The translations under genes and the position numbers were made by a program. The notes beneath the pieces are model-generated. The model ran no database searches, was not told the origin of the DNA, and worked only from the letters and a program-made list of their open reading frames with translations. A stretch of 64,000 nt of DNA. Origin: Phorcus lineatus. Taxonomy: Eukaryota > Mollusca > Gastropoda > Trochida > Trochidae. The stretch lies in assembly GCA_921293015.1 (NCBI GenBank), contig OV121090.1, positions 14,539,304 through 14,603,303 on the forward strand, given 5' to 3'. Shown here piece by piece: positions 1 to 42,456 of the stretch (position 1 is its first letter; the number at the start of each line of letters is the position of its first letter).

Positions 1-972
1 CCATTTTTTTGTCTCTTTAAAAGGCGAAATGATTCATTATTCTATATTGTTTAAAAACATTCTATTATAAAGTTCTTCGTGGTTTTCTGCAGTATTAGAA
101 GCAAAATACCAGTATCTTAAAAAGTTGAAAGAAGAAACAGCGGGACCTTTTCAAGAAGAAATAACGATATTTTTTTTCCGTTTCTTTTCGCAAACTGACA
201 CCTGTATTCATTGTTGGATGCAGTAACACCTGTGTGACTATAATTGATTTTGAATATTGCTTTTGCAGGTAAAGCACAATAATTTCAATATGATAGTCCA
301 TTTTTTTGTCTCTTTAAAAGGCGAAATGATTCATTATTCTATATTGTTTAAAAACATTCTATTATAAAGTTCTTCGTGGTTTTCTGCAGTATTAGAAGCA
401 AAATACCAGTATCTTAAAAAGTTGAAAGAAGAAACAGCGGGACCTTTTCAAGAAGAAATAACCCTTTTGACAGTGTTTACGCAGATACTGCCTGTGATTT
501 TCAATTCGTAAGAAAACCTCTGGAAGTAGGAAAATCACGATATTTTTTTTTCTGTGTCCTTTTCGCAAACTGACACCTGTATTCATTGTTGGATGCAGTA
601 ACACCTGTGTAAACTATAATTTGATTTTGAATATTGCTTTTGCAGGTAAAGCACAATAATTTCAATATGATAGTCCATTTTTTTGTCTCTTTAAAAGGCG
701 AAATGATTCATTATTCTATATTGTTTAAAAACATTCTATTATAAAGTTCTTCGTGGTTTTCTGCAGTATTAGAAGCAAAATACCAGTATCTTAAAAAGTT
801 GAAAGAAGAAACAGCGGGACCTTTTCAAGAAGAAATAACGATATTTTTTTTCCGTTTCTTTTCGCAAACTGACACCTGTATTCATTGTTGGATGCAGTAA
901 CACCTGTGTGACTATAATTTGATTTTGAATATTGCTTTTGCAGGTAAAGCACAATAATTTCAATATGATAGT

Positions 973-1270
973 CCATTTTTTTGTCTCTTTAAAAGGCGAA
1001 ATGATTCATTATTCTATATTGTTTAAAAACATTCTATTATAAAGTTCTTCGTGGTTTTCTGCAGTATTAGAAGCAAAATACCAGTATCTTAAAAAGTTGA
1101 AAGAAGAAACAGCGGGACCTTTTCAAGAAGAAATAACGATATTTTTTTTCCGTTTCTTTTCGCAAACTGACACCTGTATTCATTGTTGGATGCAGTAACA
1201 CCTGTGTGACTATAATTTGATTTTGAATATTGCTTTTGCAGGTAAAGCACAATAATTTCAATATGATAGT
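973..1270 (+). repeat. Representative short satellite unit (298 bp)
   Basis: Typical short unit, taken from the CC before the T7 tract to the base before the next one. Landmarks in order: a T7 tract; a TTTAAAA box; the pyrimidine-rich GGTTTTCTGCAG; a purine-rich stretch with AAAGAAGAAACAGCGGGACC; the short-class junction AATAACGATA followed by T8; GTGTGACTATAA; and TTGCTTTTGCAGGTAAAGC near the end. Compared with the long unit it lacks 76 bp at the AATAAC/GATA junction and has GTGTGACT rather than GTGTAAACT. It is the most abundant form in the array. Confidence 0.97.
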
Positions 1271-3135
1271 CCATTTTTTTGTCTCTTTAAAAGGCGAAAT
1301 GATTCATTATTCTATATTGTTTAAAAACATTCCTATTATAAAGTTCTTCGTGGTTTTCTGCAGTATTAGAAGCAAAATACCAGTATCTTAAAAAGTTGAA
1401 AGAAGAAACAGCGGGACCTTTTCAAGAAGAAATAACGATATTTTTTTTCCGTTTCTTTTCGCAAACTGACACCTGTATTCATTGTTGGATGCAGTAACAC
1501 CTGTGTGACTATAATTTGATTTTGAATATTGCTTTTGCAGGTAAAGCACAATAATTTCAATATGATAGTCCATTTTTTTGTCTCTTTAAAAGGCGAAATG
1601 ATTCATTATTCTATATTGTTTAAAAACATTCTATTATAAAGTTCTTCGTGGTTTTCTGCAGTATTAGAAGCAAAATACCAGTATCTTAAAAAGTTGAAAG
1701 AAGAAACAGCGGGACCTTTTCAAGAAGAAATAACCCTTTTGACAGTGTTTACGCAGATACTGCCTGTGATTTTCAATTCGTAAGAAAACCTCTGGAAGTA
1801 GGAAAATCACGATATTTTTTTTTCTGTCTCTTTTCGCAAACTGACACCTGTATTCATTGTTGGATGCAGTAACACCTGTGTAACTATAATTTGATTTTGA
1901 ATATTGCTTTTGCAGGTAAAGCACAATAATTTCAATATGATAGTCCATTTTTTTGTCTCTTTAAAAGGCGAAATGATTCATTATTCTATATTGTTTAAAA
2001 ACATTCTATTATAAAGTTCTTCGTGGTTTTCTGCAGTATTAGAAGCAAAATACCAGTATCTTAAAAAGTTGAAGAAGAAACAGCGGGACCTTTTCAAGAA
2101 GAAATAACGATATTTTTTTTCCGTTTCTTTTCGCAAACTGACACCTGTATTCATTGTTGGATGCAGTAACACCTGTGTGACTATAATTTGATTTTGAATA
2201 TTGCTTTTGCAGGTAAAGCACAATAATTTCAATATGATAGTCCATTTTTTTGTCTCTTTAAAAGGCGAAATGATTCATTATTCTATATTGTTTAAAACAT
2301 TCTATTATAAAGTTCTTCGTGGTTTTCTGCAGTATTAGAAGCAAAATACCAGTATCTTAAAAAGTTGAAAGAAGAAACAGCGGGACCTTTTCAAGAAGAA
2401 ATAACGATATTTTTTTTCCGTTTCTTTTCGCAAACTGACACCTGTATTCATTGTTGGATGCAGTAACACCTGTGTGACTATAATTTGATTTTGAATATTG
2501 CTTTTTGCAGGTAAAGCACAATAATTTCAATATGATAGTCCATTTTTTTGTCTCTTTAAAAGGCGAAATGATTCATTATTCTATATTGTTTAAAAACATT
2601 CTATTATAAAGTTCTTCGTGGTTTTCTGCAGTATTAGAAGCAAAATACCAGTATCTTAAAAAGTTGAAAGAAGAAACAGCGGGACCTTTTCAAGAAGAAA
2701 TAACGATATTTTTTTTCCGTTTCTTTTCGCAAACTGACACCTGTATTCATTGTTGGATGCAGTAACACCTGTGTGACTATAATTTGATTTTGAATATTGC
2801 TTTTGCAGGTAAAGCACAATAATTTCAATATGATAGTCCATTTTTTTGTCTCTTTAAAAGGCGAAATGATTCATTATTCTATATTGTTTAAAAACATTCT
2901 ATTATAAAGTTCTTCGTGGTTTTCTGCAGTATTAGAAGCAAAATACCAGTATCTTAAAAAGTTGAAAGAAGAAACAGCGGGACCTTTTCAAGAAGAAATA
3001 ACGATATTTTTTTTCCGTTTCTTTTCGCAAACTGACACCTGTATTCATTGTTGGATGCAGTAACACCTGTGTGACTATAATTTGATTTTGAATATTGCTT
3101 TTGCAGGTAAAGCACAATAATTTCAATATGATAGT

Positions 3136-3511
3136 CCATTTTTTTGTCTCTTTAAAAGGCGAAATGATTCATTATTCTATATTGTTTAAAAACATTCTAT
3201 TATAAAGTTCTTCGTGGTTTTCTGCAGTATTAGAAGCAAAATACCAGTATCTTAAAAAGTTGAAAGAAGAAACAGCGGGACCTTTTCAAGAAGAAATAAC
3301 CCTTTTGACAGTGTTTACGCAGATACTGCCTGTGATTTTCAATTCGTAAGAAAACCTCTGGAAGTAGGAAAATCACGATATTTTTTTTTCTGTGTCTTTT
3401 CGCAAACTGACACCTGTATTCATTGTTGGATGCAGTAACACCTGTGTAAACTATAATTTGATTTTGAATATTGCTTTTGCAGGTAAAGCACAATAATTTC
3501 AATATGATAGT
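3136..3511 (+). repeat. Representative long satellite unit (376 bp)
   Basis: Typical long unit. It matches the short unit except for 76 extra bp after AGAAATAAC (beginning CCTTTTGACAG and ending GGAAAATCAC), a slightly different T-tract region (CTGTGTC against CCGTTTC) and GTGTAAACT instead of GTGTGACT. Long units come in subtypes defined by the bases after the T-tract and by GTAAAC/GTGACT: CTGTGTC with GTAAAC (as here), CTGTCTC with GTAAAC, TCTCTGTCTC with GTGACT, and CTGTGTC or CTGTCTC with GTGACT. The diverged edge unit at 57,172 is also of the long class, so the long form is probably the older one. Confidence 0.97.
3228..3345 (+). other. Exon-like open segment inside the long satellite unit
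   Basis: On the plus strand every long unit contains a 118-nt segment (this copy is representative) preceded by a pyrimidine-rich acceptor, GGTTTTCTGCAG, and followed by a strong donor, GTAAGA. Read from its third base it is open for 38 codons, beginning LEAKYQYLKKLKEET, with a hydrophobic second half ending near TQILPVIFN. The composition (K/E-rich amphipathic part, then a hydrophobic helix) looks like real protein, unlike the F/K/C-rich minus-strand frames. A GAAGAA-rich stretch in the middle resembles an exonic splicing enhancer. The exon would enter in phase 1 and leave in phase 2, so neighbouring copies cannot be spliced to each other in frame. I do not recognise the protein. It is most simply a captured exon of a cellular gene, no longer functional; chance remains possible in a 118-nt segment. 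Confidence 0.5.
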
Positions 3512-6500
3512 CCATTTTTTTGTCTCTTTAAAAGGCGAAATGATTCATTATTCTATATTGTTTAAAAACATTCTATTATAAAGTTCTTCGTGGTTTTCTG
3601 CAGTATTAGAAGCAAAATACCAGTATCTTAAAAAGTTGAAAGAAGAAACAGCGGGACCTTTTCAAGAAGAAATAACGATATTTTTTTTCCGTTTCTTTTC
3701 GCAAACTGACACCTGTATTCATTGTTGGATGCAGTAACACCTGTGTGACTATAATTTGATTTTGAATATTGCTTTTGCAGGTAAAGCACAATAATTTCAA
3801 TATGATAGTCCATTTTTTTGTCTCTTTAAAAGGCGAAATGATTCATTATTCTATATTGTTTAAAAACATTCTATTATAAAGTTCTTCGTGGTTTTCTGCA
3901 GTATTAGAAGCAAAATACCAGTATCTTAAAAAGTTGAAAGAAGAAACAGCGGGACCTTTTCAAGAAGAAATAACGATATTTTTTTTCCGTTTCTTTTCGC
4001 AAACTGACACCTGTATTCATTGTTGGATGCAGTAACACCTGTGTGACTATAATTTGATTTTGAATATTGCTTTTGCAGGTAAAGCACAATAATTTCAATA
4101 TGATAGTCCATTTTTTTGTCTCTTTAAAAGGCGAAATGATTCATTATTCTATATTGTTTAAAAACATTCTATTATAAAGTTCTTCGTGGTTTTCTGCAGT
4201 ATTAGAAGCAAAATACCAGTATCTTAAAAAGTTGAAAGAAGAAACAGCGGGACCTTTTCAAGAAGAAATAACGATATTTTTTTTCCGTTTCTTTTCGCAA
4301 ACTGACACCTGTATTCATTGTTGGATGCAGTAACACCTGTGTGACTATAATTTGATTTTGAATATTGCTTTTGCAGGTAAAGCACAATAATTTCAATATG
4401 ATAGTCCATTTTTTTGTCTCTTTAAAAGGCGAAATGATTCATTATTCTATATTGTTTAAAAACATTCTATTATAAAGTTCTTCGTGGTTTTCTGCAGTAT
4501 TAGAAGCAAAATACCAGTATCTTAAAAAGTTGAAAGAAGAAACAGCGGGACCTTTTCAAGAAGAAATAACGATATTTTTTTTCCGTTTCTTTTCGCAAAC
4601 TGACACCTGTATTCATTGTTGGATGCAGTAACACCTGTGTGACTATAATTTGATTTTGAATATTGCTTTTGCAGGTAAAGCACAATAATTTCAATATGAT
4701 AGTCCATTTTTTTGTCTCTTTAAAAGGCGAAATGATTCATTATTCTATATTGTTTAAAAACATTCTATTATAAAGTTCTTCGTGGTTTTCTGCAGTATTA
4801 GAAGCAAAATACCAGTATCTTAAAAAGTTGAAAGAAGAAACAGCGGGACCTTTTCAAGAAGAAATAACGATATTTTTTTTCCGTTTCTTTTCGCAAACTG
4901 ACACCTGTATTCATTGTTGGATGCAGTAACACCTGTGTGACTATAATTTGATTTTGAATATTGCTTTTGCAGGTAAAGCACAATAATTTCAATATGATAG
5001 TCCATTTTTTTGTCTCTTTAAAAGGCGAAATGATTCATTATTCTATATTGTTTAAAAACATTCTATTATAAAGTTCTTCGTGGTTTTCTGCAGTATTAGA
5101 AGCAAAATACCAGTATCTTAAAAAGTTGAAAGAAGAAACAGCGGGACCTTTTCAAGAAGAAATAACCCTTTTGACAGTGTTTACGCAGATACTGCCTGTG
5201 ATTTTCAATTCGTAAGAAAACCTCTGGAAGTAGGAAAATCACGATATTTTTTTTTCTGTGTCTTTTCGCAAACTGACACCTGTATTCATTGTTGGATGCA
5301 GTAACACCTGTGTAAACTATAATTTGATTTTGAATATTGCTTTTGCAGGTAAAGCACAATAATTTCAATATGATAGTCCATTTTTTTGTCTCTTTAAAAG
5401 GCGAAATGATTCATTATTCTATATTGTTTAAAAACATTCTATTATAAAGTTCTTCGTGGTTTTCTGCAGTATTAGAAGCAAAATACCAGTATCTTAAAAA
5501 GTTGAAAGAAGAAACAGCGGGACCTTTTCAAGAAGAAATAACGATATTTTTTTTCCGTTTCTTTTCGCAAACTGACACCTGTATTCATTGTTGGATGCAG
5601 TAACACCTGTGTGACTATAATTTGATTTTGAATATTGCTTTTGCAGGTAAAGCACAATAATTTCAATATGATAGTCCATTTTTTTGTCTCTTTAAAAGGC
5701 GAAATGATTCATTATTCTATATTGTTTAAAAACATTCTATTATAAAGTTCTTCGTGGTTTTCTGCAGTATTAGAAGCAAAATACCAGTATCTTAAAAAGT
5801 TGAAAGAAGAAACAGCGGGACCTTTTCAAGAAGAAATAACGATATTTTTTTTCCGTTTCTTTTCGCAAACTGACACCTGTATTCATTGTTGGATGCAGTA
5901 ACACCTGTGTGACTATAATTTGATTTTGAATATTGCTTTTGCAGGTAAAGCACAATAATTTCAATATGATAGTCCATTTTTTTGTCTCTTTAAAAGGCGA
6001 AATGATTCATTATTCTATATTGTTTAAAAACATTCTATTATAAAGTTCTTCGTGGTTTTCTGCAGTATTAGAAGCAAAATACCAGTATCTTAAAAAGTTA
6101 AAAGAAGAAACAGCGGGACCTTTTCAAGAAGAAATAACGATATTTTTTTTCCGTTTCTTTTCGCAAACTGACACCTGTATTCATTGTTGGATGCAGTAAC
6201 ACCTGTGTGACTATAATTTGATTTTGAATATTGCTTTTGCAGGTAAAGCACAATAATTTCAATATGATAGTCAATTTTTTTGTCTCTTTAAAAGGCGAAA
6301 TGATTCATTATTCTATATTGTTTAAAAACATTCTATTATAAAGTTCTTCGTGGTTTTCTGCAGTATTAGAAGCAAAATACCAGTATCTTAAAAAGTTGAA
6401 AGAAGAAACAGCGGGACCTTTTCAAGAAGAAATAACCCTTTTGACAGTGTTTACGCAGATACTGCCTGTGATTTTCAATTCGTAAGAAAACCTCTGGAAG

Positions 6501-9500
6501 TAGGAAAATCACGATATTTTTTTTTCTGTCTCTTTTCGCAAACTGACACCTGTATTCATTGTTGGATGCAGTAACACCTGTGTAAACTATAATTTGATTT
6601 TGAATATTGCTTTTGCAGGTAAAGCACAATAATTTCAATATGATAGTCCATTTTTTTGTCTCTTTAAAAGGCGAAATGATTCATTATTCTATATTGTTTA
6701 AAAACATTCTATTATAAAGTTCTTCGTGGTTTTCTGCAGTATTAGAAGCAAAATACCAGTATCTTAAAAAGTTGAAAGAAGAAACAGCGGGACCTTTTCA
6801 AGAAGAAATAACGATATTTTTTTTCCGTTTCTTTTCGCAAACTGACACCTGTATTCATTGTTGGATGCAGTAACACCTGTGTGACTATAATTTGATTTTG
6901 AATATTGCTTTTGCAGGTAAAGCACAATAATTTCAATATGATAGTCCATTTTTTTGTCTCTTTAAAAGGCGAAATGATTCATTATTCTATATTGTTTAAA
7001 AACATTCTATTATAAAGTTCTTCGTGGTTTTCTGCAGTATTAGAAGCAAAATACCAGTATCTTAAAAAGTTGAAAGAAGAAACAGCGGGACCTTTTCAAG
7101 AAGAAATAACCCTTTTGACAGTGTTTACGCAGATACTGCCTGTGATTTTCAATTCGTAAGAAAACCTCTGGAAGTAGGAAAATCACGATATTTTTTTTTC
7201 TGTGTCTTTTCGCAAACTGACACCTGTATTCATTGTTGGATGCAGTAACACCTGTGTAAACTATAATTTGATTTTGAATATTGCTTTTGCAGGTAAAGCA
7301 CAATAATTTCAATATGATAGTCCATTTTTTTGTCTCTTTAAAAGGCGAAATGATTCATTATTCTATATTGTTTAAAAACATTCTATTATAAAGTTCTTCG
7401 TGGTTTTCTGCAGTATTAGAAGCAAAATACCAGTATCTTAAAAAGTTGAAAGAAGAAACAGCGGGACCTTTTCAAGAAGAAATAACGATATTTTTTTTCC
7501 GTTTCTTTTCGCAAACTGACACCTGTATTCATTGTTGGATGCAGTAACACCTGTGTGACTATAATTTGATTTTGAATATTGCTTTTGCAGGTAAAGCACA
7601 ATAATTTCAATATGATAGTCCATTTTTTTGTCTCTTTAAAAGGCGAAATGATTCATTATTCTATATTGTTTAAAAACATTCTATTATAAAGTTCTTCGTG
7701 GTTTTCTGCAGTATTAGAAGCAAAATACCAGTATCTTAAAAAGTTGAAAGAAGAAACAGCGGGACCTTTTCAAGAAGAAATAACGATATTTTTTTTCCGT
7801 TTCTTTTCGCAAACTGACACCTGTATTCATTGTTGGATGCAGTAACACCTGTGTGACTATAATTTGATTTTGAATATTGCTTTTGCAGGTAAAGCACAAT
7901 AATTTCAATATGATAGTCCATTTTTTTGTCTCTTTAAAAGGCGAAATGATTCATTATTCTATATTGTTTAAAAACATTCTATTATAAAGTTCTTCGTGGT
8001 TTTCTGCAGTATTAGAAGCAAAATACCAGTATCTTAAAAAGTTGAAAGAAGAAACAGCGGGACCTTTTCAAGAAGAAATAACGATATTTTTTTTCCGTTT
8101 CTTTTCGCAAACTGACACCTGTATTCATTGTTGGATGCAGTAACACCTGTGTGACTATAATTTGATTTTGAATATTGCTTTTGCAGGTAAAGCACAATAA
8201 TTTCAATATGATAGTCAATTTTTTTGTCTCTTTAAAAGGCGAAATGATTCATTATTCTATATTGTTTAAAAACATTCTATTATAAAGTTCTTCGTGGTTT
8301 TCTGCAGTATTAGAAGCAAAATACCAGTATCTTAAAAAGTTGAAAGAAGAAACAGCGGGACCTTTTCAAGAAGAAATAACCCTTTTGACAGTGTTTACGC
8401 AGATACTGCCTGTGATTTTCAATTCGTAAGAAAACCTCTGGAAGTAGGAAAATCACGATATTTTTTTTTCTGTCTCTTTTCGCAAACTGACACCTGTATT
8501 CATTGTTGGATGCAGTAACACCTGTGTAAACTATAATTTGATTTTGAATATTGCTTTTGCAGGTAAAGCACAATAATTTCAATATGATAGTCCATTTTTT
8601 TGTCTCTTTAAAAGGCGAAATGATTCATTATTCTATATTGTTTAAAAACATTCTATTATAAAGTTCTTCGTGGTTTTCTGCAGTATTAGAAGCAAAATAC
8701 CAGTATCTTAAAAAGTTGAAAGAAGAAACAGCGGGACCTTTTCAAGAAGAAATAACGATATTTTTTTTCCGTTTCTTTTCGCAAACTGACACCTGTATTC
8801 ATTGTTGGATGCAGTAACACCTGTGTGACTATAATTTGATTTTGAATATTGCTTTTGCAGGTAAAGCACAATAATTTCAATATGATAGTCCATTTTTTTT
8901 GTCTCTTTAAAAGGCGAAATGATTCATTATTCTATATTGTTTAAAAACATTCTATTATAAAGTTCTTCGTGGTTTTCTGCAGTATTAGAAGCAAAATACC
9001 AGTATCTTAAAAAGTTGAAAGAAGAAACAGCGGGACCTTTTCAAGAAGAAATAACGATATTTTTTTTCCGTTTCTTTTCGCAAACTGACACCTGTATTCA
9101 TTGTTGGATGCAGTAACACCTGTGTGACTATAATTTGATTTTGAATATTGCTTTTGCAGGTAAAGCACAATAATTTCAATATGATAGTCCATTTTTTTGT
9201 CTCTTTAAAAGGCGAAATGATTCATTATTCTATATTGTTTAAAAACATTCTATTATAAAGTTCTTCGTGGTTTTCTGCAGTATTAGAAGCAAAATACCAG
9301 TATCTTAAAAAGTTGAAAGAAGAAACAGCGGGACCTTTTCAAGAAGAAATAACGATATTTTTTTTCCGTTTCTTTTCGCAAACTGACACCTGTATTCATT
9401 GTTGGATGCAGTAACACCTGTGTGACTATAATTTGATTTTGAATATTGCTTTTGCAGGTAAAGCACAATAATTTCAATATGATAGTCCATTTTTTTGTCT

Positions 9501-12500
9501 CTTTAAAAGGCGAAATGATTCATTATTCTATATTGTTTAAAAACATTCTATTATAAAGTTCTTCGTGGTTTTCTGCAGTATTAGAAGCAAAATACCAGTA
9601 TCTTAAAAAGTTGAAAGAAGAAACAGCGGGACCTTTTCAAGAAGAAATAACCCTTTTGACAGTGTTTACGCAGATACTGCCTGTGATTTTCAATTCGTAA
9701 GAAAACCTCTGGAAGTAGGAAAATCACGATATTTTTTTTTTCTGTGTCTTTTCGCAAACTGACACCTGTATTCATTGTTGGATGCAGTAACACCTGTGTA
9801 AACTATAATTTGATTTTGAATATTGCTTTTGCAGGTAAAGCACAATAATTTCAATATGATAGTCCATTTTTTTGTCTCTTTAAAAGGCGAAATGATTCAT
9901 TATTCTATATTGTTTAAAAACATTCTATTATAAAGTTCTTCGTGGTTTTCTGCAGTATTAGAAGCAAAATACCAGTATCTTAAAAAGTTGAAAGAAGAAA
10001 CAGCGGGACCTTTTCAAGAAGAAATAACCCTTTTGACAGTGTTTACGCAGATACTGCCTGTGATTTTCAATTCGTAAGAAAACCTCTGGAAGTAGGAAAA
10101 TCACGATATTATTTTCTCTGTCTCTTTTCGCAAACTGACACCTGTATTCATTGTTGGATGCAGTAACACCTGTGTGACTATAATTTGATTTTGAATATTG
10201 CTTTTGCGGGTAAAGCACAATAATTTCAATATGATAGTCCATTTTTTTGTCTCTTTAAAAGGCGAAATGATTCATTATTCTATATTGTTTAAAAACATTC
10301 TATTATAAAGTTCTTCGTGGTTTTCTGCAGTATTAGAAGCAAAATACCAGTATCTTAAAAAGTTGAAAGAAGAAACAGCGGGACCTTTTCAAGAAGAAAT
10401 AACGATATTTTTTTTCCGTTTCTTTTCGCAAACTGACACCTGTATTCATTGTTGGATGCAGTAACACCTGTGTGACTATAATTTGATTTTGAATATTGCT
10501 TTTGCAGGTAAAGCACAATAATTTCAATATGATAGTCCATTTTTTTGTCTCTTTAAAAGGCGAAATGATTCATTATTCTATATTGTTTAAAAACATTCTA
10601 TTATAAAGTTCTTCGTGGTTTTCTGCAGTATTAGAAGCAAAATACCAGTATCTTAAAAAGTTGAAAGAAGAAACAGCGGGACCTTTTCAAGAAGAAATAA
10701 CGATATTTTTTTTCCGTTTCTTTTCGCAAACTGACACCTGTATTCATTGTTGGATGCAGTAACACCTGTGTGACTATAATTTGATTTTGAATATTGCTTT
10801 TGCAGGTAAAGCACAATAATTTCAATATGATAGTCCATTTTTTTGTCTCTTTAAAAGGCGAAATGATTCATTATTCTATATTGTTTAAAAACATTCTATT
10901 ATAAAGTTCTTCGTGGTTTTCTGCAGTATTAGAAGCAAAATACCAGTATCTTAAAAAGTTGAAAGAAGAAACAGCGGGACCTTTTCAAGAAGAAATAACC
11001 CTTTTGACAGTGTTTACGCAGATACTGCCTGTGATTTTCAATTCGTAAGAAAACCTCTGGAAGTAGGAAAATCACGATATTTTTTTTTCTGTGTCTTTTC
11101 GCAAACTGACACCTGTATTCATTGTTGGATGCAGTAACACCTGTGTAAACTATAATTTGATTTTGAATATTGCTTTTGCAGGTAAAGCACAATAATTTCA
11201 ATATGATAGTCCATTTTTTTGTCTCTTTAAAAGGCGAAATGATTCATTATTCTATATTGTTTAAAAACATTCTATTATAAAGTTCTTCGTGGTTTTCTGC
11301 AGTATTAGAAGCAAAATACCAGTATCTTAAAAAGTTGAAAGAAGAAACAGCGGGACCTTTTCAAGAAGAAATAACCCTTTTGACAGTGTTTACGCAGATA
11401 CTGCCTGTGATTTTCAATTCGTAAGAAAACCTCTGGAAGTAGGAAAATCACGATATTTTTTTTTCTGTCTCTTTTCGCAAACTGACACCTGTATTCATTG
11501 TTGGATGCAGTAACACCTGTGTAAACTATAATTTGATTTTGAATATTGCTTTTGCAGGTAAAGCACAATAATTTCAATATGATAGTCCATTTTTTTGTCT
11601 CTTTAAAAGGCGAAATGATTCATTATTCTATATTGTTTAAAAACATTCTATTATAAAGTTCTTCGTGGTTTTCTGCAGTATTAGAAGCAAAATACCAGTA
11701 TCTTAAAAAGTTGAAAGAAGAAACAGCGGGACCTTTTCAAGAAGAAATAACGATATTTTTTTTCCGTTTCTTTTCGCAAACTGACACCTGTATTCATTGT
11801 TGGATGCAGTAACACCTGTGTGACTATAATTTGATTTTGAATATTGCTTTTGCAGGTAAAGCACAATAATTTCAATATGATAGTCCATTTTTTTGTCTCT
11901 TTAAAAGGCGAAATGATTCATTATTCTATATTGTTTAAAAACATTCTATTATAAAGTTCTTCGTGGTTTTCTGCAGTATTAGAAGCAAAATACCAGTATC
12001 TTAAAAAGTTGAAAGAAGAAACAGCGGGACCTTTTCAAGAAGAAATAACGATATTTTTTTTCCGTTTCTTTTCGCAAACTGACACCTGTATTCATTGTTG
12101 GATGCAGTAACACCTGTGTGACTATAATTTGATTTTGAATATTGCTTTTGCAGGTAAAGCACAATAATTTCAATATGATAGTCCATTTTTTTGTCTCTTT
12201 AAAAGGCGAAATGATTCATTATTCTATATTGTTTAAAAACATTCTATTATAAAGTTCTTCGTGGTTTTCTGCAGTATTAGAAGCAAAATACCAGTATCTT
12301 AAAAAGTTGAAAGAAGAAACAGCGGGACCTTTTCAAGAAGAAATAACGATATTTTTTTTCCGTTTCTTTTCGCAAACTGACACCTGTATTCATTGTTGGA
12401 TGCAGTAACACCTGTGTGACTATAATTTGATTTTGAATATTGCTTTTGCAGGTAAAGCACAATAATTTCAATATGATAGTCCATTTTTTTGTCTCTTTAA

Positions 12501-15500
12501 AAGGCGAAATGATTCATTATTCTATATTGTTTAAAAACATTCTATTATAAAGTTCTTCGTGGTTTTCTGCAGTATTAGAAGCAAAATACCAGTATCTTAA
12601 AAAGTTGAAAGAAGAAACAGCGGGACCTTTTCAAGAAGAAATAACCCTTTTGACAGTGTTTACGCAGATACTGCCTGTGATTTTCAATTCGTAAGAAAAC
12701 CTCTGGAAGTAGGAAAATCACGATATTTTTTTTTCTGTCTCTTTTCGCAAACTGACACCTGTATTCATTGTTGGATGCAGTAACACCTGTGTAAACTATA
12801 ATTTGATTTTGAATATTGCTTTTGCAGGTAAAGCACAATAATTTCAATATGATAGTCCATTTTTTTGTCTCTTTAAAAGGCGAAATGATTCATTATTCTA
12901 TATTGTTTAAAAACATTCTATTATAAAGTTCTTCGTGGTTTTCTGCAGTATTAGAAGCAAAATACCAGTATCTTAAAAAGTTGAAAGAAGAAACAGCGGG
13001 ACCTTTTCAAGAAGAAATAACCCTTTTGACAGTGTTTACGCAGATACTGCCTGTGATTTTCAATTCGTAAGAAAACCTCTGGAAGTAGGAAAATCACGAT
13101 ATTTTTTTCTCTGTCTCTTTTCGCAAACTGACACCTGTATTCATTGTTGGATGCAGTAACACCTGTGTGACTATAATTTGATTTTGAATATTGCTTTTGC
13201 AGGTAAAGCACAATAATTTCAATATGATAGTCCATTTTTTTGTCTCTTTAAAAGGCGAAATGATTCATTATTCTATATTGTTTAAAAACATTCTATTATA
13301 AAGTTCTTCGTGGTTTTCTGCAGTATTAGAAGCAAAATACCAGTATCTTAAAAAGTTGAAAGAAGAAACAGCGGGACCTTTTCAAGAAGAAATAACGATA
13401 TTTTTTTTCCGTTTCTTTTCGCAAACTGACACCTGTATTCATTGTTGGATGCAGTAACACCTGTGTGACTATAATTTGATTTTGAATATTGCTTTTGCAG
13501 GTAAAGCACAATAATTTCAATATGATAGTCCATTTTTTTGTCTCTTTAAAAGGCGAAATGATTCATTATTCTATATTGTTTAAAAACATTCTATTATAAA
13601 GTTCTTCGTGGTTTTCTGCAGTATTAGAAGCAAAATACCAGTATCTTAAAAAGTTGAAAGAAGAAACAGCGGGACCTTTTCAAGAAGAAATAACGATATT
13701 TTTTTTCCGTTTCTTTTCGCAAACTGACACCTGTATTCATTGTTGGATGCAGTAACACCTGTGTGACTATAATTTGATTTTGAATATTGCTTTTGCAGGT
13801 AAAGCACAATAATTTCAATATGATAGTCCATTTTTTTGTCTCTTTAAAAGGCGAAATGATTCATTATTCTATATTGTTTAAAAACATTCTATTATAAAGT
13901 TCTTCGTGGTTTTCTGCAGTATTAGAAGCAAAATACCAGTATCTTAAAAAGTTGAAAGAAGAAACAGCGGGACCTTTTCAAGAAGAAATAACGATATTTT
14001 TTTTCCGTTTCTTTTCGCAAACTGACACCTGTATTCATTGTTGGATGCAGTAACACCTGTGTGACTATAATTTGATTTTGAATATTGCTTTTGCAGGTAA
14101 AGCACAATAATTTCAATATGATAGTCCATTTTTTTGTCTCTTTAAAAGGCGAAATGATTCATTATTCTATATTGTTTAAAAACATTCTATTATAAAGTTC
14201 TTCGTGGTTTTCTGCAGTATTAGAAGCAAAATACCAGTATCTTAAAAAGTTGAAAGAAGAAACAGCGGGACCTTTTCAAGAAGAAATAACCCTTTTGACA
14301 GTGTTTACGCAGATACTGCCTGTGATTTTCAATTCGTAAGAAAACCTCTGGAAGTAGGAAAATCACGATATTTTTTTTTCTGTCTCTTTTCGCAAACTGA
14401 CACCTGTATTCATTGTTGGATGCAGTAACACCTGTGTAAACTATAATTTGATTTTGAATATTGCTTTTGCAGGTAAAGCACAATAATTTCAATATGATAG
14501 TCCATTTTTTTGTCTCTTTAAAAGGCGAAATGATTCATTATTCTATATTGTTTAAAAACATTCTATTATAAAGTTCTTCGTGGTTTTCTGCAGTATTAGA
14601 AGCAAAATACCAGTATCTTAAAAAGTTGAAAGAAGAAACAGCGGGACCTTTTCAAGAAGAAATAACCCTTTTGACAGTGTTTACGCAGATACTGCCTGTG
14701 ATTTTCAATTCGTAAGAAAACCTCTGGAAGTAGGAAAATCACGATATTTTTTTTTCTGTGTCTTTTCGCAAACTGACACCTGTATTCATTGTTGGATGCA
14801 GTAACACCTGTGTGACTATAATTTGATTTTGAATATTGCTTTTGCAGGTAAAGCACAATAATTTCAATATGATAGTCCATTTTTTTGTCTCTTTAAAAGG
14901 CGAAATGATTCATTATTCTATATTGTTTAAAAACATGCTATTATAAAGTTCTTCGTGGTTTTCTGCAGTATTAGAAGCAAAATACCAGTATCTTAAAAAG
15001 TTGAAAGAAGAAACAGCGGGACCTTTTCAAGAAGAAATAACGATATTTTTTTTCCGTTTCTTTTCGCAAACTGACACCTGTATTCATTGTTGGATGCAGT
15101 AACACCTGTGTGACTATAATTTGATTTTGAATATTGCTTTTGCAGGTAAAGCACAATAATTTCAATATGATAGTCCATTTTTTTGTCTCTTTAAAAGGCG
15201 AAATGATTCATTATTCTATATTGTTTAAAAACATTCTATTATAAAGTTCTTCGTGGTTTTCTGCAGTATTAGAAGCAAAATACCAGTATCTTAAAAAGTT
15301 GAAAGAAGAAACAGCGGGACCTTTTCAAGAAGAAATAACGATATTTTTTTTCCGTCTCTTTTCGCAAACTGACACCTGTATTCATTGTTGGATGCAGTAA
15401 CACCTGTGTGACTATAATTTGATTTTGAATATTGCTTTTGCAGGTAAAGCACAATAATTTCAATATGATAGTCCATTTTTTTGTCTCTTTAAAAGGCGAA

Positions 15501-18500
15501 ATGATTCATTATTCTATATTGTTTAAAAACATTCTATTATAAAGTTCTTCGTGGTTTTCTGCAGTATTAGAAGCAAAATACCAGTATCTTAAAAAGTTGA
15601 AAGAAGAAACAGCGGGACCTTTTCAAGAAGAAATAACCCTTTTGACAGTGTTTACGCAGATACTGCCTGTGATTTTCAATTCGTAAGAAAACCTCTGGAA
15701 GTAGGAAAATCACGATATTTTTTTTTCTGTGTCTTTTCGCAAACTGACACCTGTATTCATTGTTGGATGCAGTAACACCTGTGTAAACTATAATTTGATT
15801 TTGAATATTGCTTTTGCAGGTAAAGCACAATAATTTCAATATGATAGTCCATTTTTTTGTCTCTTTAAAAGGCGAAATGATTCATTATTCTATATTGTTT
15901 AAAAACATTCTATTATAAAGTTCTTCGTGGTTTTCTGCAGTATTAGAAGCAAAATACCAGTATCTTAAAAAGTTGAAAGAAGAAACAGCGGGACCTTTTC
16001 AAGAAGAAATAACGATATTTTTTTTCCGTTTCTTTTCGCAAACTGACACCTGTATTCATTGTTGGATGCAGTAACACCTGTGTGACTATAATTTGATTTT
16101 GAATATTGCTTTTGCAGGTAAAGCACAATAATTTCAATATGATAGTCCATTTTTTTGTCTCTTTAAAAGGCGAAATGATTCATTATTCTATATTGTTTAA
16201 AAACATTCTATTATAAAGTTCTTCGTGGTTTTCTGCAGTATTAGAAGCAAAATACCAGTATCTTAAAAAGTTGAAAGAAGAAACAGCGGGACCTTTTCAA
16301 GAAGAAATAACGATATTTTTTTTCCGTTTCTTTTCGCAAACTGACACCTGTATTCATTGTTGGATGCAGTAACACCTGTGTGACTATAATTTGATTTTGA
16401 ATATTGCTTTTGCAGGTAAAGCACAATAATTTCAATATGATAGTCCATTTTTTTGTCTCTTTAAAAGGCGAAATGATTCATTATTCTATATTGTTTAAAA
16501 ACATTCTATTATAAAGTTCTTCGTGGTTTTCTGCAGTATTAGAAGCAAAATACCAGTATCTTAAAAAGTTGAAAGAAGAAACAGCGGGACCTTTTCAAGA
16601 AGGAATAACGATATTTTTTTTCCGTTTCTTTTCGCAAACTGACACCTGTATTCATTGTTGGATGCAGTAACACCTGTGTGACTATAATTTGATTTTGAAT
16701 ATTGCTTTTGCAGGTAAAGCACAATAATTTCAATATGATAGTCCATTTTTTTGTCTCTTTAAAAGGCGAAATGATTCATTATTCTATATTGTTTAAAAAC
16801 ATTCTATTATAAAGTTCTTCGTGGTTTTCTGCAGTATTAGAAGCAAAATACCAGTATCTTAAAAAGTTGAAAGAAGAAACAGCGGGACCTTTTCAAGAAG
16901 AAATAACCCTTTTGACAGTGTTTACGCAGATACTGCCTGTGATTTTCAATTCGTAAGAAAACCTCTGGAAGTAGGAAAATCACGATATTTTTTTTTCTGT
17001 GTCTTTTCGCAAACTGACACCTGTATTCATTGTTGGATGCAGTAACACCTGTGTAAACTATAATTTGATTTTGAATATTGCTTTTGCAGGTAAAGCACAA
17101 TAATTTCAATATGATAGTCCATTTTTTTGTCTCTTTAAAAGGCGAAATGATTCATTATTCTATATTGTTTAAAAACATTCTATTATAAAGTTCTTCGTGG
17201 TTTTCTGCAGTATTAGAAGCAAAATACCAGTATCTTAAAAAGTTGAAAGAAGAAACAGCGGGACCTTTTCAAGAAGAAATAACCCTTTTGACAGTGTTTA
17301 CGCAGATACTGCCTGTGATTTTCAATTCGTAAGAAAACCTCTGGAAGTAGGAAAATCACGATATTTTTTTTTCTGTCTCTTTTCGCAAACTGACACCTGT
17401 ATTCATTGTTGGATGCAGTAACACCTGTGTAAACTATAATTTGATTTTGAATATTGCTTTTGCAGGTAAAGCACAATAATTTCAATATGATAGTCCATTT
17501 TTTTGTCTCTTTAAAAGGCGAAATGATTCATTATTCTATATTGTTTAAAAACATTCTATTATAAAGTTCTTCGTGGTTTTCTGCAGTATTAGAAGCAAAA
17601 TACCAGTATCTTAAAAAGTTGAAAGAAGAAACAGCGGGACCTTTTCAAGAAGAAATAACGATATTTTTTTTCCGTTTCTTTTCGCAAACTGACACCTGTA
17701 TTCATTGTTGGATGCAGTAACACCTGTGTGACTATAATTTGATTTTGAATATTGCTTTTGCAGGTAAAGCACAATAATTTCAATATGATAGTCCATTTTT
17801 TTGTCTCTTTAAAAGGCGAAATGATTCATTATTCTATATTGTTTAAAAACATTCTATTATAAAGTTCTTCGTGGTTTTCTGCAGTATTAGAAGCAAAATA
17901 CCAGTATCTTAAAAAGTTGAAAGAAGAAACAGCGGGACCTTTTCAAGAAGAAATAACGATATTTTTTTTCCGTTTCTTTTCGCAAACTGACACCTGTATT
18001 CATTGTTGGATGCAGTAACACCTGTGTGACTATAATTTGATTTTGAATATTGCTTTTGCAGGTAAAGCACAATAATTTCAATATGATAGTCCATTTTTTT
18101 GTCTCTTTAAAAGGCGAAATGATTCATTATTCTATATTGTTTAAAAACATTCTATTATAAAGTTCTTCGTGGTTTTCTGCAGTATTAGAAGCAAAATACC
18201 AGTATCTTAAAAAGTTGAAAGAAGAAACAGCGGGACCTTTTCAAGAAGAAATAACGATATTTTTTTTCCGTTTCTTTTCGCAAACTGACACCTGTATTCA
18301 TTGTTGGATGCAGTAACACCTGTGTGACTATAATTTGATTTTGAATATTGCTTTTGCAGGTAAAGCACAATAATTTCAATATGATAGTCCATTTTTTTGT
18401 CTCTTTAAAAGGCGAAATGATTCATTATTCTATATTGTTTAAAAACATTCTATTATAAAGTTCTTCGTGGTTTTCTGCAGTATTAGAAGCAAAATACCAG

Positions 18501-18984
18501 TATCTTAAAAAGTTGAAAGAAGAAACAGCGGGACCTTTTCAAGAAGAAATAACGATATTTTTTTTCCGTTTCTTTTCGCAAACTGACACCTGTATTCATT
18601 GTTGGATGCAGTAACACCTGTGTGACTATAATTTGATTTTGAATATTGCTTTTGCAGGTAAAGCACAATAATTTCAATATGATAGTCCATTTTTTTGTCT
18701 CTTTAAAAGGCGAAATGATTCATTATTCTATATTGTTTAAAAACATTCTATTATAAAGTTCTTCGTGGTTTTCTGCAGTATTAGAAGCAAAATACCAGTA
18801 TCTTAAAAAGTTGAAAGAAGAAACAGCGGGACCTTTTCAAGAAGAAATAACGATATTTTTTTTCCGTTTCTTTTCGCAAACTGACACCTGTATTCATTGT
18901 TGGATGCAGTAACACCTGTGTGACTATAATTTGATTTTGAATATTGCTTTTGCAGGTAAAGCACAATAATTTCAATATGATAGT

Positions 18985-20332
18985 CCATTTTTTTGTCTCT
19001 TTAAAAGGCGAAATGATTCATTATTCTATATTGTTTAAAAACATTCTATTATAAAGTTCTTCGTGGTTTTCTGCAGTATTAGAAGCAAAATACCAGTATC
19101 TTAAAAAGTTGAAAGAAGAAACAGCGGGACCTTTTCAAGAAGAAATAACGATATTTTTTTTCCGTCTCTTTTCGCAAACTGACACCTGTATTCATTGTTG
19201 GATGCAGTAACACCTGTGTGACTATAATTTGATTTTGAATATTGCTTTTGCAGGTAAAGCACAATAATTTCAATATGATAGTCCATTTTTTTGTCTCTTT
19301 AAAAGGCGAAATGATTCATTATTCTATATTGTTTAAAAACATTCTATTATAAAGTTCTTCGTGGTTTTCTGCAGTATTAGAAGCAAAATACCAGTATCTT
19401 AAAAAGTTGAAAGAAGAAACAGCGGGACCTTTTCAAGAAGAAATAACCCTTTTGACAGTGTTTACGCAGATACTGCCTGTGATTTTCAATTCGTAAGAAA
19501 ACCTCTGGAAGTAGGAAAATCACGATATTTTTTTTTCTGTGTCTTTTCGCAAACTGACACCTGTATTCATTGTTGGATGCAGTAACACCTGTGTAAACTA
19601 TAATTTGATTTTGAATATTGCTTTTGCAGGTAAAGCACAATAATTTCAATATGATAGTCCATTTTTTTGTCTCTTTAAAAGGCGAAATGATTCATTATTC
19701 TATATTGTTTAAAAACATTCTATTATAAAGTTCTTCGTGGTTTTCTGCAGTATTAGAAGCAAAATACCAGTATCTTAAAAAGTTGAAAGAAGAAACAGCG
19801 GGACCTTTTCAAGAAGAAATAACGATATTTTTTTTCCGTTTCTTTTCGCAAACTGACACCTGTATTCATTGTTGGATGCAGTAACACCTGTGTGACTATA
19901 ATTTGATTTTGAATATTGCTTTTGCAGGTAAAGCACAATAATTTCAATATGATAGTCCATTTTTTTGTCTCTTTAAAAGGCGAAATGATTCATTATTCTA
20001 TATTGTTTAAAAACATTCTATTATAAAGTTCTTCGTGGTTTTCTGCAGTATTAGAAGCAAAATACCAGTATCTTAAAAAGTTGAAAGAAGAAACAGCGGG
20101 ACCTTTTCAAGAAGAAATAACCCTTTTGACAGTGTTTACGCAGATACTGCCTGTGATTTTCAATTCGTAAGAAAACCTCTGGAAGTAGGAAAATCACGAT
20201 ATTTTTTTTTCTGTGTCTTTTCGCAAACTGACACCTGTATTCATTGTTGGATGCAGTAACACCTGTGTAAACTATAATTTGATTTTGAATATTGCTTTTG
20301 CAGGTAAAGCACAATAATTTCAATATGATAGT
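18985..20332 (+). repeat. Four-unit higher-order block, copy 1 (1348 bp)
   Basis: Order of units: a short unit carrying the marker CCGTCTC (instead of CCGTTTC), a CTGTGTC-type long unit, an ordinary short unit, and another CTGTGTC-type long unit. The same order with the same marker recurs at 26,083 and 29,374, so the four units seem to have been copied as a block. Confidence 0.8.
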
Positions 20333-22198
20333 CCATTTTTTTGTCTCTTTAAAAGGCGAAATGATTCATTATTCTATATTGTTTAAAAACATTCTATTAT
20401 AAAGTTCTTCGTGGTTTTCTGCAGTATTAGAAGCAAAATACCAGTATCTTAAAAAGTTGAAAGAAGAAACAGCGGGACCTTTTCAAGAAGAAATAACGAT
20501 ATTTTTTTTCCGTTTCTTTTCGCAAACTGACACCTGTATTCATTGTTGGATGCAGTAACACCTGTGTGACTATAATTTGATTTTGAATATTGCTTTTGCA
20601 GGTAAAGCACAATAATTTCAATATGATAGTCCATTTTTTTGTCTCTTTAAAAGGCGAAATGATTCATTATTCTATATTGTTTAAAAACATTCTATTATAA
20701 AGTTCTTCGTGGTTTTCTGCAGTATTAGAAGCAAAATACCAGTATCTTAAAAAGTTGAAAGAAGAAACAGCGGGACCTTTTCAAGAAGAAATAACGATAT
20801 TTTTTTTCCGTTTCTTTTCGCAAACTGACACCTGTATTCATTGTTGGATGCAGTAACACCTGTGTGACTATAATTTGATTTTGAATATTGCTTTTGCAGG
20901 TAAAGCACAATAATTTCAATATGATAGTCCATTTTTTTGTCTCTTTAAAAGGCGAAATGATTCATTATTCTATATTGTTTAAAAACATTCTATTATAAAG
21001 TTCTTCATGGTTTTCTGCAGTATTAGAAGCAAAATACCAGTATCTTAAAAAGTTGAAAGAAGAAACAGCGGGACCTTTTCAAGAAGAAATAACGATATTT
21101 TTTTTCCGTTTCTTTTCGCAAACTGACACCTGTATTCATTGTTGGATGCAGTAACACCTGTGTGACTATAATTTGATTTTGAATATTGCTTTTGCAGGTA
21201 AAGCACAATAATTTCAATATGATAGTCCATTTTTTTGTCTCTTTAAAAGGCGAAATGATTCATTATTCTATATTGTTTAAAAACATTCTATTATAAAGTT
21301 CTTCGTGGTTTTCTGCAGTATTAGAAGCAAAATACCAGTATCTTAAAAAGTTGAAAGAAGAAACAGCGGGACCTTTTCAAGAAGAAATAACCCTTTTGAC
21401 AGTGTTTACGCAGATACTGCCTGTGATTTTCAATTCGTAAGAAAACCTCTGGAAGTAGGAAAATCACGATATTTTTTTTTCTGTGTCTTTTCGCAAACTG
21501 ACACCTGTATTCATTGTTGGATGCAGTAACACCTGTGTAAACTATAATTTGATTTTGAATATTGCTTTTGCAGGTAAAGCACAATAATTTCAATATGATA
21601 GTCCATTTTTTTGTCTCTTTAAAAGGCGAAATGATTCATTATTCTATATTGTTTAAAAACATTCTATTATAAAGTTCTTCGTGGTTTTCTGCAGTATTAG
21701 AAGCAAAATACCAGTATCTTAAAAAGTTGAAAGAAGAAACAGCGGGACCTTTTCAAGAAGAAATAACGATATTTTTTTTCCGTTTCTTTTCGCAAACTGA
21801 CACCTGTATTCATTGTTGGATGCAGTAACACCTGTGTGACTATAATTTGATTTTGAATATTGCTTTTGCAGGTAAAGCACAATAATTTCAATATGATAGT
21901 CCATTTTTTTGTCTCTTTAAAAGGCGAAATGATTCATTATTCTATATTGTTTAAAAACATTCTATTATAAAGTTCTTCGTGGTTTTCTGCAGTATTAGAA
22001 GCAAAATACCAGTATCTTAAAAAGTTGAAAGAAGAAACAGCGGGACCTTTTCAAGAAGAAATAACGATATTTTTTTTCCGTTTCTTTTCGCAAACTGACA
22101 CCTGTATTCATTGTTGGATGCAGTAACACCTGTGTGACTATAATTTGATTTTGAATATTGCTTTTGCAGGTAAAGCACAATAATTTCAATATGATAGT

Positions 22199-23765
22199 CC
22201 ATTTTTTTGTCTCTTTAAAAGGCGAAATGATTCATTATTCTATATTGTTTAAAAACATTCTATTATAAAGTTCTTCGTGGTTTTCTGCAGTATTAGAAGC
22301 AAAATACCAGTATCTTAAAAAGTTGAAAGAAGAAACAGCGGGACCTTTTCAAGAAGAAATAACCCTTTTGACAGTGTTTACGCAGATACTGCCTGTGATT
22401 TTCAATTCGTAAGAAAACCTCTGGAAGTAGGAAAATCACGATATTTTTTTTTCTGTGTCTTTTCGCAAACTGACACCTGTATTCATTGTTGGATGCAGTA
22501 ACACCTGTGTGACTATAATTTGATTTTGAATATTGCTTTTGCAGGTAAAGCACAATAATTTCAATATGATAGTCCATTTTTTTGTCTCTTTAAAAGGCGA
22601 AATGATTCATTATTCTATATTGTTTAAAAACATTCTATTATAAAGTTCTTCGTGGTTTTCTGCAGTATTAGAAGCAAAATACCAGTATCTTAAAAAGTTG
22701 AAAGAAGAAACAGCGGGACCTTTTCAAGAAGAAATAACGATATTTTTTTTCCGTTTCTTTTCGCAAACTGAGACCTGTATTCATTGTTGGATGCAGTAAC
22801 ACCTGTGTGACTATAATTTGATTTTGAATATTGCTTTTGCAGGTAAAGCACAATAATTTCAATATGATAGTCCATTTTTTTGTCTCTTTAAAAGGCGAAA
22901 TGATTCATTATTCTATATTGTTTAAAAACATTCTATTATAAAGTTCTTCGTGGTTTTCTGCAGTATTAGAAGCAAAATACCAGTATCTTAAAAAGTTGAA
23001 AGAAGAAACAGCGGGACCTTTTCAAGAAGAAATAACGATATTTTTTTTCCGTTTCTTTTCGCAAACTGACACCTGTATTCATTGTTGGATGCAGTAACAC
23101 CTGTGTGACTATAATTTGATTTTGAATATTGCTTTTGCAGGTAAAGCACAATAATTTCAATATGATAGTCCATTTTTTTGTCTCTTTAAAAGGCGAAATG
23201 ATTCATTATTCTATATTGTTTAAAAACATTCTATTATAAAGTTCTTCGTGGTTTTCTGCAGTATTAGAAGCAAAATACCAGTATCTTAAAAAGTTGAAAG
23301 AAGAAACAGCGGGACCTTTTCAAGAAGAAATAACGATATTTTTTTTCCGTTTCTTTTCGCAAACTGACACCTGTATTCATTGTTGGATGCAGTAACACCT
23401 GTGTGACTATAATTTGATTTTGAATATTGCTTTTGCAGGTAAAGCACAATAATTTCAATATGATAGTCCATTTTTTTGTCTCTTTAAAAGGCGAAATGAT
23501 TCATTATTCTATATTGTTTAAAAACATTCTATTATAAAGTTCTTCGTGGTTTTCTGCAGTATTAGAAGCAAAATACCAGTATCTTAAAAAGTTGAAAGAA
23601 GAAACAGCGGGACCTTTTCAAGAAGAAATAACGATATTTTTTTTCCGTCTCTTTTCGCAAACTGACACCTGTATTCATTGTTGGATGCAGTAACACCTGT
23701 GTGACTATAATTTGATTTTGAATATTGCTTTTGCAGGTAAAGCACAATAATTTCAATATGATAGT
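22199..23765 (+). repeat. Five-unit duplicated block, copy 1
   Basis: Long unit (CTGTGTC with GTGACT), then a short unit with the rare GAGACCTG in place of GACACCTG, two ordinary short units, and a short unit with CCGTCTC. The identical order and both markers occur 5906 bp downstream at 28,105. The rare GAGACC change occurs only in these two places as far as I can see. Confidence 0.85.
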
Positions 23766-26082
23766 CCATTTTTTTGTCTCTTTAAAAGGCGAAATGATTC
23801 ATTATTCTATATTGTTTAAAAACATTCTATTATAAAGTTCTTCGTGGTTTTCTGCAGTATTAGAAGCAAAATACCAGTATCTTAAAAAGTTGAAAGAAGA
23901 AACAGCGGGACCTTTTCAAGAAGAAATAACCCTTTTGACAGTGTTTACGCAGATACTGCCTGTGATTTTCAATTCGTAAGAAAACCTCTGGAAGTAGGAA
24001 AATCACGATATTTTTTTTTCTGTCTCTTTTCGCAAACTGACACCTGTATTCATTGTTGGATGCAGTAACACCTGTGTAAACTATAATTTGATTTTGAATA
24101 TTGCTTTTGCAGGTAAAGCACAATAATTTCAATATGATAGTCCATTTTTTTGTCTCTTTAAAAGGCGAAATGATTCATTATTCTATATTGTTTAAAAACA
24201 TTCTATTATAAAGTTCTTCGTGGTTTTCTGCAGTATTAGAAGCAAAATACCAGTATCTTAAAAAGTTGAAAGAAGAAACAGCGGGACCTTTTCAAGAAGA
24301 AATAACGATATTTTTTTTCCGTTTCTTTTCGCAAACTGACACCTGTATTCATTGTTGGATGCAGTAACACCTGTGTGACTATAATTTGATTTTGAATATT
24401 GCTTTTGCAGGTAAAGCACAATAATTTCAATATGATAGTCCATTTTTTTGTCTCTTTAAAAGGCGAAATGATTCATTATTCTATATTGTTTAAAAACATT
24501 CTATTATAAAGTTCTTCGTGGTTTTCTGCAGTATTAGAAGCAAAATACCAGTATCTTAAAAAGTTGAAAGAAGAAACAGCGGGACCTTTTCAAGAAGAAA
24601 TAACCCTTTTGACAGTGTTTACGCAGATACTGCCTGTGATTTTCAATTCGTAAGAAACCTCTGGAAGTAGGAAAATCACGATATTTTTTTTTCTGTGTCT
24701 TTTCGCAAACTGACACCTGTATTCATTGTTGGATGCAGTAACACCTGTGTAAACTATAATTTGATTTTGAATATTGCTTTTGCAGGTAAAGCACAATAAT
24801 TTCAATATGATAGTCCATTTTTTTGTCTCTTTAAAAGGCGAAATGATTCATTATTCTATATTGTTTAAAAACATTCTATTATAAAGTTCTTCGTGGTTTT
24901 CTGCAGTATTAGAAGCAAAATACCAGTATCTTAAAAAGTTGAAAGAAGAAACAGCGGGACCTTTTCAAGAAGAAATAACCCTTTTGACAGTGTTTACGCA
25001 GATACTGCCTGTGATTTTCAATTCGTAAGAAAACCTCTGGAAGTAGGAAAATCACGATATTTTTTTTCTGTGTCTTTTCGCAAACTGACACCTGTATTCA
25101 TTGTTGGATGCAGTAACACCTGTGCGACTATAATTTGATTTTGAATATTGCTTTTGCAGGTAAAGCACAATAATTTCAATATGATAGTCCATTTTTTTGT
25201 CTCTTTAAAAGGCGAAATGATTCATTATTCTATATTGTTTAAAAACATTCTATTATAAAGTTCTTCGTGGTTTTCTGCAGTATTAGAAGCAAAATACCAG
25301 TATCTTAAAAAGTTGAAAGAAGAAACAGCGGGACCTTTTCAAGAAGAAATAACGATATTTTTTTTCCGTTTCTTTTCGCAAACTGACACCTGTATTCATT
25401 GTTGGATGCAGTAACACCTGTGTGACTATAATTTGATTTTGAATATTGCTTTTGCAGGTAAAGCACAATAATTTCAATATGATAGTCCATTTTTTTGTCT
25501 CTTTAAAAGGCGAAATGATTCATTATTCTATATTGTTTAAAAACATTCTATTATAAAGTTCTTCGTGGTTTTCTGCAGTATTAGAAGCAAAATACCAGTA
25601 TCTTAAAAAGTTGAAAGAAGAAACAGCGGGACCTTTTCAAGAAGAAATAACGATATTTTTTTTCCGTTTCTTTTCGCAAACTGACACCTGTATTCATTGT
25701 TGGATGCAGTAACACCTGTGTGACTATAATTTGATTTTGAATATTGCTTTTGCAGGTAAAGCACAATAATTTCAATATGATAGTCCATTTTTTTGTCTCT
25801 TTAAAAGGCGAAATGATTCATTATTCTATATTGTTTAAAAACATTCTATTATAAAGTTCTTCGTGGTTTTCTGCAGTATTAGAAGCAAAATACCAGTATC
25901 TTAAAAAGTTGAAAGAAGAAACAGCGGGACCTTTTCAAGAAGAAATAACGATATTTTTTTTCCGTTTCTTTTCGCAAACTGACACCTGTATTCATTGTTG
26001 GATGCAGTAACACCTGTGTGACTATAATTTGATTTTGAATATTGCTTTTGCAGGTAAAGCACAATAATTTCAATATGATAGT

Positions 26083-27430: not shown

Positions 27431-28104
27431 CCATTTTTTTGTCTCTTTAAAAGGCGAAATGATTCATTATTCTATATTGTTTAAAAACATTCTATTATAA
27501 AGTTCTTCGTGGTTTTCTGCAGTATTAGAAGCAAAATACCAGTATCTTAAAAAGTTGAAAGAAGAAACAGCGGGACCTTTTCAAGAAGAAATAACGATAT
27601 TTTTTTTCCGTTTCTTTTCGCAAACTGACACCTGTATTCATTGTTGGATGCAGTAACACCTGTGTGACTATAATTTGATTTTGAATATTGCTTTTGCAGG
27701 TAAAGCACAATAATTTCAATATGATAGTCCATTTTTTTGTCTCTTTAAAAGGCGAAATGATTCATTATTCTATATTGTTTAAAAACATTCTATTATAAAG
27801 TTCTTCGTGGTTTTCTGCAGTATTAGAAGCAAAATACCAGTATCTTAAAAAGTTGAAAGAAGAAACAGCGGGACCTTTTCAAGAAGAAATAACCCTTTTG
27901 ACAGTGTTTACGCAGATACTGCCTGTGATTTTCAATTCGTAAGAAAACCTCTGGAAGTAGGAAAATCACGATATTTTTTTTTCTGTGTCTTTTCGCAAAC
28001 TGACACCTGTATTCATTGTTGGATGCAGTAACACCTGTGTAAACTATAATTTGATTTTGAATATTGCTTTTGCAGGTAAAGCACAATAATTTCAATATGA
28101 TAGT

Positions 28105-42300: not shown

Positions 42301-42456
42301 GGACCTTTTCAAGAAGAAATAACGATATTTTTTTTCCGTTTCTTTTCGCAAACTGACACCTGTATTCATTGTTGGATGCAGTAACACCTGTGTGACTATA
42401 ATTTGATTTTGAATATTGCTTTTGCAGGTAAAGCACAATAATTTCAATATGATAGT
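36331..42456 (+). repeat. Duplicated ten-unit block, 3212-bp offset
   Basis: Units from 36,331 to 39,542 (ten units, 3212 bp) are followed by the same order again from 39,543 for nine units. Order: long unit (CTGTCTC, GTGACT); a short unit; a short unit with ACATTTTATT instead of ACATTCTATT; two long CTGTGTC units, the first with GTAAAC and the second with GTGACT; then short units. The ACATTTTATT marker sits at the same place in both copies (near 37,062 and 40,274). The second copy has a private change, TATATAGTTT, near 41,908. Confidence 0.85.

Follow-up and report, generated by a model that had tools for sequence, protein, structure and literature searches.

In theory any sequence can seed a satellite array, according to an excerpt of the review PMC5615363, which also describes satellites with length variants. 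The array reported here resembles these in being a long head-to-tail array of near-identical monomers through which a deletion variant has spread, and differs from them in that splice-like sites, among them an acceptor and a donor placed back to back (AG/GT), lie on one strand of nearly every monomer. Tandem repeats are also found in the satellite-like repeats carried by Helentrons of the Pacific oyster (excerpt of PMC7492417), which form short dispersed arrays, whereas here a single array exceeds 57 kb and no element ends were identified. Recursive splicing (RP) sites of long invertebrate introns follow the consensus (y)nncag|gtaagt (excerpt of PMC2773006). They have the same layout as the TATTGCTTTTGCAG/GTAAAG of the array, but here the site recurs in nearly every satellite repeat, has A and not G at position +5, and is known from sequence alone. 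Introns can be gained when segments bearing AGGT are duplicated in tandem, GT...AG intron-shaped units being the result (excerpt of PMC4974935). Tandem copies with AG/GT arise there as well; the cases in the excerpt comprise one or a few copies inside genes, in contrast to the 178 copies found here, with no gene shown around them. The excerpt of a paper on Drosophila giant introns with satellites (PMC6508621) does not mention recursive splicing, and the term exon is absent from the excerpt of PMC7642928. Among the best literature matches, all of them open-access and represented by excerpts, no direct precedent was found for satellites with exons, intron gain or recursive splice sites. Here we present the layout of the array, an exon-like segment within its repeat unit, and the back-to-back site. 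At present, the array is most likely an ordinary satellite of young age, notable for a splice-like motif, and the coding claim made for it is unproven.

Layout and uniformity of the array

A tandem repeat array fills the window (the whole stretch of DNA analysed, 64,000 bases with no N) from base 1 to about base 57,600; homology to the repeat unit stops between 57,590 and 57,601, in the final copy. The coordinates of all features are shown in Table 1. Unit starts were located by GTGGTTTTCTGCAG with at most 2 substitutions, so that any unit with a more damaged acceptor would escape the count. Long units measure about 376 bp (n = 58, including the terminal one) and short units about 298 bp (n = 120), and the sequence of long and short units along the array has no obvious order, as read informally from the printout. 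Being a long head-to-tail array of near-identical monomers, the array classifies as satellite DNA. Together with the splice-like sites and a reverse-transcriptase relic in the flank, the satellite suggests that the DNA is probably eukaryotic; a mollusc as host is a guess. Its minus strand holds stop-to-stop frames of 98 or 104 codons, 53 in all; the minus-strand frame of the terminal unit gave no Pfam match. A search of the window with Rfam at gathering scores, together with a tRNA scan, yielded no matches.

Table 1. Position and properties of the features in the window
Feature	Position	Strand	Remarks
Satellite array	1..57601	+	continues left of the window; 178 repeat starts (58 long, 120 short)
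Back-to-back acceptor/donor TATTGCTTTTGCAG/GTAAAG	3093..3112	+	6.6 and 4.5 bits; shape of a recursive splice site
One long unit	3107..3482	+	register GTAAAG...TTTTGCAG: 121 nt intron-like, 118 nt exon-like, 137 nt intron-like
Acceptor-like GTGGTTTTCTGCAG	3214..3227	+	3.5 bits; AG present in 177 of 178 units
Exon-like segment, 118 nt	3228..3345	+	one open plus frame; complete in long units, truncated in short units
Donor-like GTAAGA	3346..3351	+	58 of 58 long units, 0 of 120 short units; -2.2 bits
Terminal long copy	57250..57601	+	most diverged of the array; back-to-back site reads AG|GA
Candidate first exons of a plus-strand gene, by eye	62202-62314	+	MAALAEFVCGRIL...
	63020-63119	+	MCEGIRGSATDVHIHY...
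	63772-63893	+	IVTFEMTSHLLTVLREIYP...

Short units lack a block of 76 nt situated between AAATAAC and AAATCAC (read from the printed sequences). The missing block comprises the 3' part of the exon-like segment and its donor; all 120 short units retain the 5' part of the segment together with the acceptor, whose AG is intact in 177 of the 178 units. Regarding the 57 internal long units, the mean identity to the modal unit was 99.57%; regarding the 120 short units, it was 99.91%. With its far greater uniformity, the short form looks as if it had spread more recently. Complete identity to the modal unit was found in 95 of the 120 short units and in 19 of the 57 internal long units. Local clustering of the long units was considered and rejected: a two-marker haplotype was common to 14 of 56 adjacent pairs, compared with a shuffled mean of 15.5.

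Relative to the modal long unit, the terminal copy shows 8 substitutions and one inserted T, all located between base 126 and unit position 340. Its first 126 bases, a stretch that covers most of the exon-like segment, are those of the modal long unit. A clean start of this length has a chance probability of about 2.5% (8 in 340), with a cut that was chosen post hoc; another computation, for 9 differences and 112 nt, gave 0.027. The unchanged start mildly suggests constraint or a conversion tract. Three of the changes in the terminal copy fall within the last six bases of the exon-like segment.

The array is probably a young, highly homogenised satellite, in which the exon-like segment would be one ancestral sequence copied along with the unit, probably without a coding role now; its ancestor may have been either an exon or a chance sequence. 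The long form would be the ancestral one, since the diverged terminal copy belongs to it. The short form may have arisen by deletion between two imperfect repeats, AAATAAC and AAATCAC, and unequal exchange or a similar copying process could then have spread it to 120 of the 178 units, the exon-like segment presumably travelling as a passenger of repeat copying. This account is the most economical one. Against it stand the amino-acid composition of the open frame (within the top 3.5%, see below) and the unchanged first 126 bases of the terminal copy. Derivation of the unit from an intron-exon-intron piece of a gene or from a mobile element concerns the ancestry of the repeat, and both are compatible with a young satellite.

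The exon-like segment and its possible ancestry in a gene

The sequence-only reading had described, for every long unit, an acceptor, 118 nt open in a plus frame and a GTAAGA donor, and this arrangement was indeed seen in 58 of 58 long units. The stretch 3228-3345 is open only in plus frame 2, reading LEAKYQYLKKLKEETAGPFQEEITLLTVFTQILPVIFN plus two nt. The frame is free of stops in all 57 long units that were extracted; in the 58th (at 24518) the downstream letters mismatch the 10-nt search motif, and the same segment is visible by eye. Among the 57 extracted peptides, 54 are identical, two have I replaced by K, and that of the terminal unit ends in FT|TT versus FN|TC. Because the mean identities to the modal unit are as high as given above, the 58 "exons" are most likely one observation copied and not 58 independent ones. 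The end of the frame right at the donor had been offered as a sign of a real exon, but it is not independent evidence; GTAAGA itself includes TAA and thus automatically ends any frame in that register.

A tentative explanation, which we regard as possible but rather doubtful, derives the unit from a genuine intron-exon-intron stretch of some host gene that was amplified to a satellite, with the exon left as a relic. It is favoured by the occurrence of acceptor, open frame and donor in this order on one strand, by the register of 121 + 118 + 137 nt bounded by GTAAAG and TTTTGCAG, and by the strong AG/GT site present on the same strand in nearly every unit. The donor TTC|GTAAGA speaks against it, being weak on the exon side (TTC) and scoring below background.

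The segment was compared with chance by a search for exon-like segments of 50-300 nt on either strand of dinucleotide shuffles of the long unit, with splice scores taken from manually entered matrices. A segment at least as good occurred in 395 of 2000 shuffles when lengths of 50-300 nt were admitted, which argues against a gene-derived exon, and in 89 of 2000 at lengths of at least 118 nt, which is neutral or slightly in favour of one. The real long unit contains four such exon-like segments, two per strand. Also against a gene origin, the 6.4-kb flank beyond the array contains 11 equally good exon-like rows on 7 acceptors. (Note that this scoring may miss true exons: the candidate exon 63020-63119, recognised by eye, is not among its rows.)

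When the 118 nt were shuffled 5000 times, some plus frame remained open in 655 cases. The composition of the peptide had been called balanced and protein-like; this description held up mildly, with the amino-acid composition score being reached by 3.5% of 661 open shuffled frames (a point in favour of a gene origin). The GC content is 0.35 in the segment versus 0.30 in the rest of the unit, and 1999 of 2000 shuffles contained a 118-nt stretch that matched this value. The segment is thus not distinct in GC-richness, which again counts against a gene origin. In all, the segment does not stand out from chance in these comparisons, and support for reading it as an exon is slight.

Searches for relatives of the segment are neutral or count slightly against a gene origin, all of the collections being poorly suited to an animal gene. 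The peptide had no match in PDB or Pfam at E <= 10. Pattern scans, with all patterns taken from the peptide's first half, hit 45 stretches in prokaryote contigs and at least 600 in viral contigs, none of which was confirmed by tblastn. No exact match was found in viral contigs for two 26-mers of the unit, nor in prokaryote contigs for one.

A second exon following the acceptor of the AG/GT site (EKHNNFNMIVHFF...) was tried and rejected. Frame 0 is open there, but, as judged by eye, it misfits the end phase of the 118-nt exon, which does not supply the phase needed; this is a further point against a gene-derived unit. A 104-nt variant of the exon with the donor GTGATT (-1.0 bits) would fit the phase of the EKHNNFNMIVHFF... 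frame. Peptides of the second-exon model gave no match in PDB (joined form) or in Pfam. Should the unit nevertheless be of gene origin, the satellite would show coding pieces turning into bulk repeats.

The flank beyond the array

A broken reverse-transcriptase relic, LINE-like by reading, is located near the array on the minus strand (57998-59177). Five minus-strand pieces of it were searched in Pfam: 58416-58697 matches RVT_1 (E 2.7e-7), and 58176-58415 also matches RVT_1, below its cut-off (E 0.0036). A mobile-element ancestry of the repeat itself (e.g., from the tandem core of a Helentron or from a MITE), in which case the open frame would be chance or element sequence, seems improbable. 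Origins of this kind are described for bivalve and other satellites (excerpts of PMC9659126 and PMC7492417) and the relic is close to the array, but its matched part begins about 575 bases beyond the array, without a shown link, and the left end of the array is outside the window.

Three candidate first exons of a plus-strand gene were recognised by eye farther downstream (Table 1). None of the three had a Pfam match above its cut-off, and 63020-63119 joined with 63772-63893 had no match in PDB. The phases of 62202-62314 and 63020-63119 clash, with their join giving TGA; the candidate gene model is therefore incomplete. A link of these exons at 62-64 kb with the exon-like segment of the satellite had been suggested and found no backing, as two comparisons by BLASTP produced no alignment with the peptide at E <= 100.

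The back-to-back splice-like site and the unlikelihood of present coding use

The TTTTGCAG/GTAAAG of the unit combines the best acceptor and the best donor of its plus strand; one minus-strand acceptor also scores 6.6 bits. With acceptor and donor back to back after the manner of (y)nncag|gtaagt, its sequence has the layout of a recursive splice site. AG/GT is intact in 173 of the 178 units, and the remainder comprises three units with AG|GC, one in which the acceptor AG is lost, and the terminal unit with AG|GA. Frequencies in shuffled units are post hoc, the site having been spotted before being tested: both scores were reached by 5 of 3000 shuffles of the long unit and by 5 of 3000 of the short unit, and the summed score by 34 of 3000 (long) and 13 of 3000 (short). 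Three plain AG/GT patterns occurred in 6, 25 and 44 of 3000 shuffles of the long unit and in 1, 11 and 23 of 3000 of the short unit; the lowest counts, 6 (long) and 1 (short), are those of the pattern Y5NCAG|GTAA.

The flank holds a back-to-back site of its own at 61747|61748 (TTTTTTTTCCACAG/GTGACG, 61734-61753), with scores of 9.1 and 5.6 bits. It is the only one in the 6.4 kb, both strands considered, that outscores the array site on both sides. Because this site scores higher, such AG/GT sites are not unique to the array.

The AG/GT motif may matter more than the exon-like segment. Each unit could be read as an intron-shaped module, GTAAAG...TTTTGCAG, in which case a transcript crossing the array might be ratcheted out unit by unit, or by any number of units at once; the satellite would then be invisible to splicing and could expand harmlessly in a gene, and the exon-like segment would be a relic or decoy exon of the source intron. 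This reading, derived from the letters of the repeat, appears very unlikely to us. If true, a satellite with intron-like units would bear on the survival of huge repeats inside genes.

For the young satellite favoured here, the segment is probably not protein-coding sequence today, because the donor is missing from 120 short units, the length of 118 nt is not divisible by three, and variants show no significant depletion within the segment. Among the internal long units, 1 of 9 substitution types falls into the exon part (P = 0.17); among the short units, 3 of 15 do (P = 0.48). Both values, from counts that exclude the changes of the terminal unit and all indels, are close to the expectation from length; the heavy homogenisation of the array leaves such selection tests with low power. 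Two 118-nt copies joined to each other run into a stop at codon 47. A real gene with massively duplicated exons, copies of which are spliced in, is scarcely credible: all 58 long units have retained the splice-like donor, but each inclusion of 118 nt shifts the frame, the donor is absent in 120 of 178 units, and with 54 of 57 extracted peptides identical there is no diversity for choice. A coding array of alternative exons was likewise rejected in view of the frame arithmetic, the 120 donorless units and the identical copies. Regarding single units, the acceptor AG is lost in the short unit at 26161, and the exon part of the short unit at 2023 carries a frameshift, with one base gone from a run of A, that may be a sequencing error.
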